64,000 nucleotides of DNA from NCBI GenBank assembly GCA_943735955.1, contig OX030969.1, positions 1,150,991-1,214,990 on the forward strand. The letters run 5' to 3'. The notes beneath the pieces were generated by a model that was not told the origin of the DNA, ran no database searches, and worked only from the letters and a program-made list of their open reading frames with translations. Shown piece by piece: positions 758-53,100 of the stretch (the first letter of the stretch is position 1; the number at the start of each line of letters is the position of its first letter). The translations under genes and the position numbers were made by a program. The stretch comes from Piscicola geometra (lineage: Eukaryota > Annelida > Clitellata > Hirudinida > Piscicolidae).

Positions 758-3700
758 CGCCGGATAAGAGAGGCGAAGAGGGAAGGCATCTTGTTCGTGG
801 GGGCAGGCATCAGTGGAGGGCAAGAAGCTGCCAGGTGGGGAGCCTCCATCAGCCCCGGAGGAGATGTCGAAGCTTGGTGAGGGGTGGCAGATGTGTGCAG
901 TAGTAGGAGTAGTAGTCGTACTACTAACACATACCACACCACACAGGCCACAAGTAACACATACTACACCACACAGGCCACAACTAGCACATACCACACC
1001 ACACAGGCCACAACTAACACATACCACACCACACAGGCCACAACTAACACATACCTCACCACACAGGTCACAAGTAACACATACTACACCACACAGGCCA
1101 CAAGTAACACATACCTCACCACACAGGTCACAAGTAACACATACTACACCACACAGGCCACAAGTAACACATACCACACCACACAGGCCACAACTAGCAC
1201 ATACCACACCACACAGGCCACAACTAACACATACCTCACCACACAGGCCACAACTAGCACATACTACACCACACAGGCCACAACTAGCACATACCACACC
1301 ACACAGGCCACAACTAACACATACTACACCACACAGGCCACAAGTAACACATACCACACTACACAGGCCACAAGTAACACATACAACACCACACAGGCCA
1401 CAACTAGCACATACCACACCACACAGGCCACAACTAGCACATACCACACCACACAGGCCACAAGTAACACATACTACACCACACAGGCCACAACTAGCAC
1501 ATACCACACCACACAGGCCACAAGTAACACATACCACACCACACAGGCCACAAGTAACACATACTACACCACACAGGCCACAACTAGCACATACTACACC
1601 ACACAGGCCATAACTAGCACATACTACACCACACAGGCCACAACTAGCACATACCACACCACACAGGCCACAAGTAACACATACTACACCACACAGGCCA
1701 CAACTAGCACATACCACACCACACAGGCCACAAGTAACACATACCACACCACACAGGCCACAAGTAACACATACTACACCACACAGGCCACAACTAGCAC
1801 ATACTACACCACACAGGCCATAACTAGCACATACTACACCACACAGGCCACAACTAGCACATACCTCACCACACAGGCCACAAGTAACACATACCACACC
1901 ACACAGGCCACAACTAGCACATACCACACCACACAGGCCACAACTAGCACATACTACACCACACAGGCCACAACTAGCACATACCACACCACACAGACCA
2001 CAACTAGCACATACCTTACCACACAGGCCACAACTAACACATACTACACCACACAGGCCACAAGTAACACATACTACACCACACAGGCCACACATAAAAG
2101 AGATCTTGCAGGCGATTGCTCCCAAAGTCGATGGAGAGCCCTGCTGCGATTGGGTTCTTTTACTTTAACATAGCCACCCATCTATTATTCTTCTACATAT
2201 TTATTTATTTATTCATATAACTTAGTCAACCCCCACCATGCCAACCACCACTATGCCAAGCACAACAACAACAACACCAGTTAGGCAGTGGGGGGGCTGG
2301 TCACTTTGTGAAGGCAGTGCACAACGGCATTGAGTACGGAGACATCCAGATGATTTGTGAGACGTACCACCTCCTCAAGAGGGTGGCTGGCATGAGCAAC
2401 CAACAGATTGCTCGTGTCAGTTTTTTCGACCATTACCCCACAAACACAACCTCACCATCCAAAACACAACCCTACCATTCTAACCAAATCCCCACTATCT
2501 AATTTTTCAACCACAACTCCTTCAACAAACTACAAACCCACAACCACACCACAAGTTTGCCACTAAACTACAACCCCACAAACCATCCCAACAACAATTC
2601 CACCATCCCAACAACAATCCCACCCTCCCAACAACAACCATACTATCCCAACAACAATCCCACCCTCCCAACAACAATCCCAAAATCCCAACAACAATCC
2701 CACCCTCTCAACAACAATCCTACCCTCCCATCGACAATCCCATCTTCCTAACAACAATCCCACCATCCCAACTACAATCCCACCCTCCCAATAATAATCC
2801 CACCCTCCCAACAACAATCCCACCCTCCCAACAACAATTCCACCATCCCAACATTAATCTCACCCTCTCAACAACAATCCCACCCTCTCAACGACAATCC
2901 CACCTTCCTAACAACAATCCCACCATCCCAACAACAATCCCACCCTCCCAATAATAATCCCACCATCCCAACAACAATCTCACCTTCCTAACAACAATCC
3001 CACCATCCCAACAACAATCCCACCCTCCCAACAACAATCCCACCATCCCAACAACAATCCCACCCTCCCAACAACAATCCCACCATCCCAACAACAATCC
3101 CACCCTCCCAACAACAATCCCATCCTCCCAACAACAATCCCACCCTCCCAACAACAATCCCACCATCCCAACAACAATCCCACCCTCTCAACAACAATCC
3201 CATCCTCCCAACAACAATCCCATCCTCCCAACAACAATCCCACCCTCCCAACAACAACCCCACCCTTTCAACAACAACCCCACCCTCCCAACAACAATCC
3301 CACCCTCCCAACAACAATCCCATCCTCCCAACGACAATCCCACCCTCCCAACAACAACACCACCCTCCCAACAACAACCCCACCCTCCCAACAACAATCC
3401 CACCCTCTCAACAACAATCCCATCCTCCCAACAACAATCCCATCCTCCCAACAACAATCCCACCCTCCCAACAACAATCCCACCCTCCCAACAACAATCC
3501 CATCCTCCCAAAAACAATCCCACCCTCCCAACAACAATCCCACCATCCCAACAACAATCCCACCCTCTCAACAACAATCCCACCCTCCCAACGACAACCA
3601 TACTATCCCAACAACAATCCCACCATCCCAACAACAATCCCACCCTCTCAACAACAATCCCACCATCCCAACAACAATCCCATCCTCCCAACAACAATCT

Positions 3701-50100: not shown

Positions 50101-53100
50101 CACAATACAACACCACACTACAACACCACATTACAACACCACACCACAACACCACACTACAACACCACACCACAACACCACACCACAACACCACACCACA
50201 ACACCACACCACAACACCACACCACACTACAACACCACACCACACCTAACCACACCATACTACATCACAACACAACAACACCACACCACACCACACAACA
50301 CCACAACACCACACCACAACACCACACCACAACACCACACCACAACACCACACCACAACACCACACCACAACACCACACCACACTACAACACCACACCAC
50401 ACCACAACACCACAACACCACACCACAACACCACAACACCACACCACCACACCACACTACAACACCACACTACAACACCAGACCACAACACCACACCACA
50501 ACACCACACCACCACACCACACTACAACACCACACTATAACACCATACCACAACACCACACTACAACACCGGACCACAGCACCACACCACAACACCACAC
50601 CACCACACCACAACACCACATCACAACACCACAACACCACACCACCACACCACAATACAACACCACACTACAACACCACATTACAACACCACACTACAAC
50701 ACCACACCACAACACCCCACTACAACACCACATTACAACACCACACTACAACACCAGACTACAACACCAGACTACAAGACCACACCACAACACCACACTA
50801 CAACACCACACTACAACACCAGACTACAACACCACACTACAACACCACACTAAAACACCAGACTACAACACCAGACTACAACACCACACTACAACACCAC
50901 ACCACACTACAACACCAGACTACAACACCACACTACAAGACCAAACTACAACAGAAAGATGCGCAACGGCAAAAAATTTCTGTGTGCTCGTTTTGCCGTT
51001 TCGCATTTTTCAAAAACATTTTTTCCCCACACCACTCCTCACCACACCACTCCTCACCACACCACTCCTCACCACACCACTCCTCAATACTCCACTCCTC
51101 ACCACACCACTCCTCACCACACCACTCCTCACCACACCACTCCTCACCACACCACTCCTCAATACTCCACTCCTCACCACACCACTCCTCACCACACCAC
51201 TCCTCACCACATCACTCCTCAATACTCCACTCCTCAATACTCCACTCCTCACCACACCACTCCTCAATACTCCACTCCTCACCACACCACTCCTCAATAC
51301 TCCACTCCTCACCACACCACTCCTCAATACTCCACTCCTCACCACACCACTCCTCAATACTCCACTCCTCACCACACCACTCCTCACCACATCACTCCTC
51401 ACCACACCACTCCTCACCACACCACTCCTCACCACACCACTCCTCACCACACCACTCCTCACCACACCACTCCTCAATACTCCACTCCTCACCACACCAC
51501 TCCTCAATACTCCACTCCTCAATACTCCACTCCTCAATACTCCACTCCTCACCACACCACTCCTCACCACACCACTCCTCACCACACCACTCCTCAATAC
51601 TCCACTCCTCACCACATCACTCCTCTCTCACCTTCTCAAGCCTCTGTCTCTCTCTCTTCTCCTTCCTCTTTTGTGCTGCTGTCTTCATCCCTCCCTCATC
51701 CTTCTCTCCCCCATCATTACCATCATCATCATCATCATCAGCAGCAGCAGCAGCAGTATGTGCTTTTGGTTTAGCAGCTTCTTTTACTGCTTCCTTAGCC
51801 TGCTTGCCTGCCTTGTTATCTATTAGAGCATCATCATCATCAGCACCACCCTTGTCATCATCATCATCATCACCACCTTTAGTGTCTGCTCTACCATTCC
51901 GTTGGTTCTTTCCTTTTGAAACTGTCTTTTTAGCATCCTTCCTAACACCACCAACATCATCATCATCATCAGCATCACCTTCTTTCTTCTTCTTCTTCTT
52001 CTTCTCCTTCTTCCTTTCATCCTCCTCATACTCTATCTCCATCGCTTCCAGCATTTTGACGATATCATCATCATCACCGCCTGCACTCGCCACAATCTTT
52101 CCAGACAGGGCTTGTTGGGCTGCTTGATTTGCTGTAGTCTTCTTGTCGTTTTCCTCCTCCTCTCCCTCCTCCTTCTCTGCAGCAGCCTTTCCAACCTTCA
52201 ACAACATTCAACAACATTCACCACTCATATAATTGTTATCATCATCATCATCACATCCACTACTATCATCATTATCATCCCATCTACTGCCATCATCATC
52301 ATGCCAACCTTCTTCTTCTTCTTCTCTTTCTTGGCGGCATCGACAGGCACGTCAGTGAACTGTGACAAGATGGCATCAAAGTCTTCCTCTTTCTCAGGCT
52401 TGTCTGCGTGACGATTAATCAACTAACCAATCTACTTAGCACTGATATGCACGATCTAGATAATTACACTGATGATGATGATGATGAAGATAAAACCATC
52501 ATTATCATCACCCCCACAAGCTTTTTCCACACCACTCAACCTATTCTAATGCATACATTGAACTCAAGTCAAGATGTGCAGCCAAAATGGCCGTGAGACT
52601 CGCTCGGGTTGCACGCCGCTATAAGAATATTGCTTGCATTCCTAATTATTTGAAGCATGCCTGCCCTCACAAGCCTCTCACTTCTGCCCTTCTGCCTCTT
52701 GCCCGCTTGCTGTGTCTTCTTTGCCTTCTTCTCCACCACCACCTTCACTTCATCATCATCATCATCATCTCCTCCTCCGTCATCATCATCATCACCATCA
52801 TCCAACATGGCATATAAAACAGCCATGTTCGGCTTCTTAATTGGTTTGTTTGGTACATCATCATTATCATCATCATTGTCCTTGTCTTTATGGATAACTT
52901 TTGGTGTTTCTTCATCACTGTCCAAATCTTTCTGTGTGAATTGTCCTTAAGTTCACTTTCGCTTGATCATTATGAAAGAATATTGAAAATAATTTTGAAT
53001 TTCAATATGGCACTAGAGGCTTAATAGAAATCATTTGTATGCTCAATGCTTCGAGGAGAACCTGTTCTTTATTTAATTGTTTCTTTTTGTTCTTCTTCTT

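Follow-up and report, generated by a model that had tools for sequence, protein, structure and literature searches.

Opposite base polarity of tandem arrays at the donor and acceptor splice sites of introns in the leech Piscicola geometra

When tandem repeats fill an intron, do the bases of an array depend on the splice site that it touches? The question is raised by a stretch of 64,000 bases, the window of this study, taken from one contig (OX030969.1, positions 1,150,991 to 1,214,990) of the 171 Mb, 66-contig assembly GCA_943735955.1 of the leech Piscicola geometra. The window carries the gene PGD on the forward (+) strand and the genes MED6 and EIF5B on the reverse (-) strand, and tandem repeats mask 33,952 of its 64,000 bases. 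A prediction made from these letters alone (hereafter the original prediction) held that the intronic arrays of the three genes are anchored at splice sites, and that they are G/T-rich in the sense strand at donors and mostly C/A- or C/T-rich at acceptors. Here, 34 introns modelled in the window (9 of PGD, 2 of MED6 and 23 of EIF5B) were analysed together with 53 introns inferred on 13 other contigs.

Polarity and anchoring of the arrays

The arrays were called by Tandem Repeats Finder (TRF), the edges of which are approximate, and an array was taken to touch a splice site when its edge lay no more than 15 nt away. Over all the data, 18 of the 22 arrays touching only a donor were G-skewed and 4 C-skewed, whereas 28 of the 32 touching only an acceptor were C-skewed, with 2 G-skewed and 2 neutral (Fisher test of donor versus acceptor, 3e-8), as the original prediction had it. 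Arrays touching both ends were G-skewed in one case and C-skewed in three (n = 4), and the internal arrays included 22 G-skewed, 11 C-skewed and 3 neutral (n = 36). The window by itself gave 13 G-skewed and 2 C-skewed donor-only arrays (n = 15), 2 G-skewed and 13 C-skewed acceptor-only arrays (n = 15), three C-skewed arrays out of three touching both ends, and 17 internal arrays. On the other contigs there were 5 G-skewed and 2 C-skewed arrays at donors only (n = 7), and none G-skewed, 15 C-skewed and 2 neutral at acceptors only (n = 17), a difference with P 8e-4 when the neutral arrays are excluded. The second set of these introns, taken alone, yielded 2 G-skewed and 1 C-skewed at donors (n = 3) and none G-skewed, 3 C-skewed and 1 neutral at acceptors (n = 4). 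The removal of EIF5B from the first 67 introns leaves 5 G-skewed and 1 C-skewed arrays at donors and none G-skewed and 18 C-skewed at acceptors. The polarity tracks the sense of transcription on both strands, i.e., in PGD on one and in MED6 and EIF5B on the other, as well as outside the window, and this supports the further claim that the skew follows the gene and not the chromosome strand.

Arrays were present in 61 of the 87 sampled introns, and in the first 67 they covered 55.7% of the intron bases. Shuffled introns yielded 5.0-5.5 kb of arrays against the 31.3 kb observed, and composition alone, therefore, does not make them. Of the 94 arrays in the 87 introns, 58 had an edge no farther than 15 nt from a splice site, compared with 25.6 +- 3.1 when arrays were placed at random inside their own introns; the corresponding values were 33 of 50 arrays against 14.8 +- 2.1 in the 34 introns of the window, and 25 of 44 against 10.9 +- 2.5 on the other contigs (2000 placements). 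The comparison with random positions thus showed an overall excess also when extended to 53 introns on 13 further contigs. Among the latter, 18 arrays were anchored at acceptors, where 5.9 +- 1.9 were expected, a number that was reached in 0 of the 2000 random placements. The excess of array edges is clear at acceptors, and at donors it is found in the window only, so that the claim of anchoring stood for the window and for the acceptors elsewhere, but not for the donors elsewhere.

The arrays of opposite skew are largely of one kind, as five of the six are ATC/TAC trinucleotide repeats. Arrays of the ATC/TAC type are without polarity (donor, 3 G-skewed and 3 C-skewed; acceptor, 2 and 5), and their removal leaves 15 G-skewed and 1 C-skewed arrays at donors and none G-skewed, 23 C-skewed and 2 neutral at acceptors. 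In the window, the rule is broken in seven introns (PGD 4 and 6, and EIF5B 2, 8, 13, 15 and 18). An ATC-type array stands at the donor of PGD 4 (9554..9661) and PGD 6 (10122..10400), where a single ATC-type array and a CAT-type array, respectively, touch both ends, and also at the donors of EIF5B 13 and 15. EIF5B 2 and 18 have an array of the TAG/GAT type at the acceptor, and in EIF5B 8 (37864..38946) a single C-rich array occupies the whole intron and touches both of its ends. The polarity of EIF5B 15 (31408-31642) is reversed: ATC stands at its donor and a run of GAT close to its acceptor, so that in this intron the two ends are still complementary. EIF5B 2 (43142-43341) is of the GC-AG type, with its TAG-type array reaching near the acceptor.

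The introns outside the window were obtained through genome-wide Pfam searches that gave exon-by-exon matches, between neighbouring pairs of which the introns were inferred from short splice motifs, the reading frame and the continuity of the profile; these introns come, then, from conserved domains. Only positions -3 to +6 of the donor and -3 to +1 of the acceptor were used in the choice of splice sites. Of 92 inferred introns 53 were kept: a first set supplied 33 of 58, and a second set, examined when the trinucleotide split was already known, 20 of 34. The other 25 and 14, respectively, were dropped, for reasons that included a low score, a low margin and possible read-through. The 53 comprise 18 kinesin, 13 chaperonin, 11 kinase, 4 proteasome, 3 helicase, 2 synthetase and 2 aldehyde dehydrogenase introns, the last two being near-identical copies. 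The domain rows entered were 46 of 46 for chaperonin, 77 of 89 for kinesin, 134 of 147 for kinase, 13 of 22 for proteasome, 13 of 38 for helicase, 12 of 17 for class-I and 4 of 16 for class-II synthetase, 8 of 19 for aldehyde dehydrogenase and 4 of 42 for ubiquitin hydrolase; 22 of the 36 selected genomic regions entered, one of them shortened. Introns from one gene are not independent of each other, and the median intron length was 372 nt in the window and shorter, at 275 and 210 nt, in the two sets from other contigs.

Intron ends, copied splice sites and rival explanations

The same bias is found at intron ends that carry no array. In array-free donors, positions +7 to +30 have frequencies of 0.32 for G, 0.36 for T and 0.13 for C, with G exceeding C at 19 of the 25 ends and the reverse at 5, and in array-free acceptors positions -30 to -7 have 0.38 for C, 0.32 for A and 0.08 for G, with C exceeding G in 17 of 18. 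Given this, the bias is a property of the intron ends on which the arrays sit, and the arrays need not be its source. Over 77 introns, the average ends show G 0.31 and T 0.36 at +7 to +60 of the donor, and A 0.32 and C 0.35 at -60 to -7 of the acceptor. The donor consensus in the 87 introns is GTGNGTGTG (+3 G 0.75, +5 G 0.67, +6 T 0.57, +7 G 0.45, +8 T 0.49, +9 G 0.45), and the acceptor flank in the 53 introns from other contigs is CA-rich and not T-rich (C+A 0.71 versus C+T 0.57 over -30 to -5), a combination that is, to our knowledge, unusual in an animal. Along the introns the mean GC skew starts at +0.25/+0.32 in the first tenth and has dropped to -0.50/-0.58 by the last tenth. The biases of the donor side and of the acceptor side are independent between introns (rho -0.08, P 0.47), as expected if each site acts locally. 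The branch point gave no clear signal, with CTAAC within the last 60 nt in 4 of 67 introns against 2 of 52 in the control stretch, and neither did a genome-wide count of the pattern GGTAAGTGGTGGTGG, with 18 matches against 36 for the reversed control.

Some arrays copy the splice site itself. The first 12 bases of an intron recur within it in 11 of 77 introns, where 1.3 would be expected from the swapping of introns, and the last 12 recur in 12 of 77, where 1.0 would be expected; on the other contigs, such copies of the own donor and acceptor occur in 5 and 5 of 46 introns. These counts include register shifts within arrays of short period, and the copies that also hold exon bases are fewer, being found for 3 donors and 2 acceptors among the 77 introns, with one of these five outside the window. 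Three repeat units span the junction unmistakably. In PGD intron 1 (877..2086), a C/A array at 923-2092 touches the acceptor, and its unit spans a branch-point-like ACTAAC, then CACACAG and the first exon bases GCCACA, so that CACACAGGCCACA (CACACAG/GCCACA, the slash marking the junction) is present 33 times, the real junction counted. In EIF5B intron 3 (41954..43072), the array at 41941-42713 has at the acceptor a unit with CACTCCAG/CCAC, present 22 times including the real junction. In EIF5B intron 10 (34167..36754), the unit of the donor array at 34550-36760 joins the exon end to the donor as GAGCAG/GTGG, present 51 times including the real donor, with a further copy of the exon tail past the array, at 34515; the protein of a relative (P0001, from a short contig) reads through this intron as modelled. 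Amplification of the splice site, the apparent starting point according to the original prediction, is hence seen in a minority of introns: copies of the own site are there in 11 and 12 of 77, while those with exon bases number 3 and 2.

These observations are best joined by a reading to which we give a probability of about 0.5, namely that the arrays amplify a polarity already standing at the intron ends, and inherit the bias of the site that they touch. Its starting point is the standing bias of the ends in the sense strand, in which G and T prevail past the donor (GTGNGTGTG) and C and A, with few G, lead up to the acceptor. On these biased flanks, repeats would expand locally as in mirages or stuttering, presumably through slippage or unequal exchange, sometimes including the splice site and rarely the bases of the exon edge, with the result that arrays would take over the bias of their site. 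Selection on the coding sequence may halt the arrays at the exon, which would let their edges accumulate at splice sites. The ATC/TAC arrays, which do not resemble splice sites and lack polarity, fit a seeding by the flanks.

Several points weigh against this proposal. The trinucleotide split is post hoc, having been chosen on the first 67 introns, and one non-trinucleotide donor array of the later sample breaks it. Outside the window, anchoring at donors is not significant at 15 nt (8 arrays versus 6.0 +- 2.0, P 0.23), with 13 versus 8.9 at 25 nt (P 0.06). Most introns are without a recognisable copy of their own splice site, and no more than 5 of 77 have copies with exon bases. Among the 13 donor-only arrays of the window with G skew, those of EIF5B 3 and 23 are probably retrotransposon tails. 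Since retrotransposon-like tails adjoin three EIF5B donors, the donor signal of the window derives in part from something else. Finally, the bias of the array-free ends is itself left unexplained by the model.

The rival that fares best, although we regard it as unlikely, is a filter imposed by splicing, by which arrays would arise at random in introns and survive where they do not disturb splicing, with those containing G being lost near acceptors, where they offer decoy AG, and with G/T-rich, enhancer-like arrays being retained near donors. In favour of such a filter, spurious AG near acceptors is described as selected against in Drosophila and other eukaryotes (PMC10946897). In the leech introns, the first AG met on going upstream from the acceptor has a median distance of 65 nt, and in 67 introns it comes as close as 10 nt once and as close as 20 nt 11 times. 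Yet the arrays at acceptors are richer in AG than their base composition predicts (210 versus 131), those at donors are full of GT, and trinucleotide arrays are tolerated in either orientation. Arrays like (CA)n, moreover, hold neither GT nor AG and are nevertheless rare at donors. A pure splicing filter accounts for the shortage of G before acceptors, but not for the rarity of C/A arrays at donors.

A second rival, which we consider improbable, is that the G/U-rich 5' end of an intron pairs with the C/A-rich 3' end of the same intron, bridging it in the RNA as proposed for the AC/GT introns of fish. The arms of the two ends do pair better than the 5' end with the middle (-26.2 versus -17.7; the former is the stronger in 27 of 41 cases), 12 of 54 introns outdo 95% of their dinucleotide shuffles, and EIF5B 15, with ATC at its donor and GAT near its acceptor, would suit such pairing. 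But arms from the same intron pair no better than those from different introns (-23.1 versus -22.1, P 0.22, 71 introns); a weak advantage is seen in the window only (P 0.07 with 40 nt, 0.09 with 60 nt), against P 0.70 in the first set from other contigs alone, and G/T at the donor is uncorrelated with C/A at the acceptor across introns. As a feature specific to each intron, bridging is not supported by the swapping of arms, the correlation of the two ends and the shuffles taken together, in spite of the partial results in its favour given above.

It is slightly less probable still that the pattern is an error of the assembly or of the gene models. Outside the window the splice sites were inferred from domain matches, and 39 of the 92 inferred introns were dropped, which leaves some room for this view, but the pattern repeats in 53 introns on 13 further contigs, the models of the window agree with independent proteins, and the choice of splice sites used few positions only (donor -3 to +6, acceptor -3 to +1). 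The least probable account, a mutation or repair bias associated with transcription as the sole cause, agrees with a skew that follows transcription sense but predicts one sign, whereas the skew flips inside introns, from +0.25/+0.32 to -0.50/-0.58.

Introns and mobile elements of the window

The intron numbers used here are those of this analysis, and the EIF5B numbers of the original prediction, which listed other exceptions to the rule than those above, cannot be mapped onto them. The counts cover EIF5B from 47537 downstream and two MED6 introns. The remaining MED6 introns were left out and, because of the weak homology there, so were the EIF5B introns upstream of 47537, including the one with an array at donor 51631. 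For PGD, the alignment of the model with the solved 6PGDH 1pgn extends over 372 residues and contains two single-residue indels, the MED6 model matches the solved MED6 7emf_F and is gapless across acceptor 13676, and the EIF5B protein from the joined exons of the window is 87% identical to P0001 and 70% to that of Capitella teleta, the best named relative. EIF5B introns 5-23 were checked by eye against P0001, by which the acceptor of intron 12 was set to 32469. These alignments to independent proteins support the predicted splice sites of the 34 introns. Where boundaries could be compared with the models, those named originally proved exact (PGD acceptors 2086, 9427, 9987 and 11251 and donor 11352; MED6 donors 13437 and 17729; donor 51631).

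In PGD (+), besides the introns already described, intron 3 (2416..9427) holds C-rich arrays at 2582-5701 and 5871-9426, of which the second reaches the acceptor, and C/A arrays stand at the acceptors of intron 5 (9726..9987, array 9830-9986) and intron 8 (10684..11251, array 11001-11250). The donor flank of intron 9 (11352..11713) is G-rich, but the TRF array at 11435-11480 begins 83 nt inside and not at the donor itself. In MED6 (-), a TAG-type array runs from the donor of intron 2 of the two modelled (13264..13437). Intron 1 (13676..17729) has a sense (GT)n array at 17598-17723 at the donor and a second one at 13925-14103, and the two flank a transposon-like block, as if an insertion had split an older (GT)n.

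In EIF5B (-), the G/T array of intron 1 of the 23 modelled (43418..47537) extends over 47106-47517, starting 20 nt off the donor, and a C-rich array at 43434-47000 stops 16 nt short of the acceptor. Intron 11 (33771..34087) has arrays of both kinds, G/T by the donor and C/A by the acceptor, and so has intron 17 (29862..30786; donor array 30523-30787, acceptor array 29859-30371). A sense G/T array runs from the donor of intron 12 (32469..33666), CT- and CA-type arrays reach the acceptor of intron 16 (30919..31323), and intron 20 (24530..26523) has a sense G-rich array 24 nt from the donor and a C-rich one at the acceptor. In intron 23 (20214..23729), the donor-side TTG array is probably a retrotransposon tail, as is probably the donor side of intron 3. 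The upstream intron at 49527..51631, outside the statistics, has a sense G/T array from its donor.

Related fragments resembling retrotransposons, so named by eye from an RNaseH-like open reading frame and an AAC-rich tail, lie at 22400-23729, 27200-29784 and 42740-43072, with pieces 81-91% identical. Only 3 to 6 bp separate their ends from the donors of EIF5B introns 23, 18 and 3, and the donors of introns 18 and 23 both begin with GTGCTCTTGTTGCTG. Either donor-side GTT arrays are targets for the insertion of such fragments, or the arrays come from the tails of the fragments. Two copies of a further element lie in opposite orientation at 14991-16569 and 39070-40528, bounded by TAGAGGTCGGAC and GTCCGACCTCTA and with tandem repeats of the CCCGT type near the ends.

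Kindred systems and meaning

Repeats that arise at splice sites are known from other lineages. The mirages of amphioxus (Adh3, globin, TnC, PGBD5) are minisatellite-like tandem duplications across the exon-intron boundary, on either side, in which the splice signals are repeated (PMC3087553, PMC3902484). As in these, the repeat unit spans the boundary with the splice site in PGD 1, EIF5B 3 and EIF5B 10, although not in most of the arrays, and the leech, unrelated to amphioxus, carries arrays in 61 of its 87 sampled introns. Mirages are also marked by normal splicing in spite of the repeated sites, and by length or somatic instability; the accounts compared mention no base polarity by splice site. 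In the sequence stuttering of chicken dot chromosomes, short sequences expand locally to fill introns, and the expansion sometimes sets out from the edge of an exon together with the splice site (PMC12954441). The leech introns are likewise filled by local imperfect tandem repeats, in 61 of 87 cases, and a fragment of the exon edge is copied into EIF5B 10 (at 34515 and in the array). Stuttering in chicken is confined to small GC-rich chromosomes; by size, the leech departs from this, as the 13 contigs that carry the sampled introns include C1 and C2, the largest named. Stuttering also shows length differences between individuals, and the available text of that paper has no mention of G-rich, pyrimidine or polarity.

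The average ends of the 77 leech introns, GT-type at the donor and AC-type at the acceptor, resemble the bridging introns described by Lin et al. in Genome Research, in which, reportedly, GT marks the 5' end and AC the 3' end, and U2AF2 is not needed for splicing. Such AC- and GT-rich tracts are found in introns of fish and lamprey (PMC7404189). The leech differs in that complementary tracts show no tendency to share an intron (rho -0.08; P 0.22 for pairing within the intron), and in that its repeats are often longer minisatellites. In Cryptococcus, introns are gained through the expansion of repeat units that include exon ends (PMC2395259), but there whole introns are duplicated, while here existing introns grow. 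No description of polarity in splice-site arrays was found in the literature searched, outside which most subscription journals lie, and among the matches listed there was no paper on CA-rich or GU-rich intron ends and none on intron repeats in annelids.

It is conceivable, though unlikely, that introns in this animal are no longer recognised by a T-rich pyrimidine tract but by a GU-rich donor flank and a CA-rich acceptor flank, which stuttering would keep making and spreading, in which case the arrays would be part of the splicing signal and not debris. Splice-site stuttering has been described from lancelet genes and bird dot chromosomes, with its mechanism unsettled there (PMC3087553, PMC3902484, PMC12954441). 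A further lineage, in which the arrays are frequent and their polarity is set by the site, separates what the arrays copy, i.e., the flanks of the splice sites, from what expands them, and it points to an animal in which the 3' ends of introns are CA-rich rather than pyrimidine-rich.

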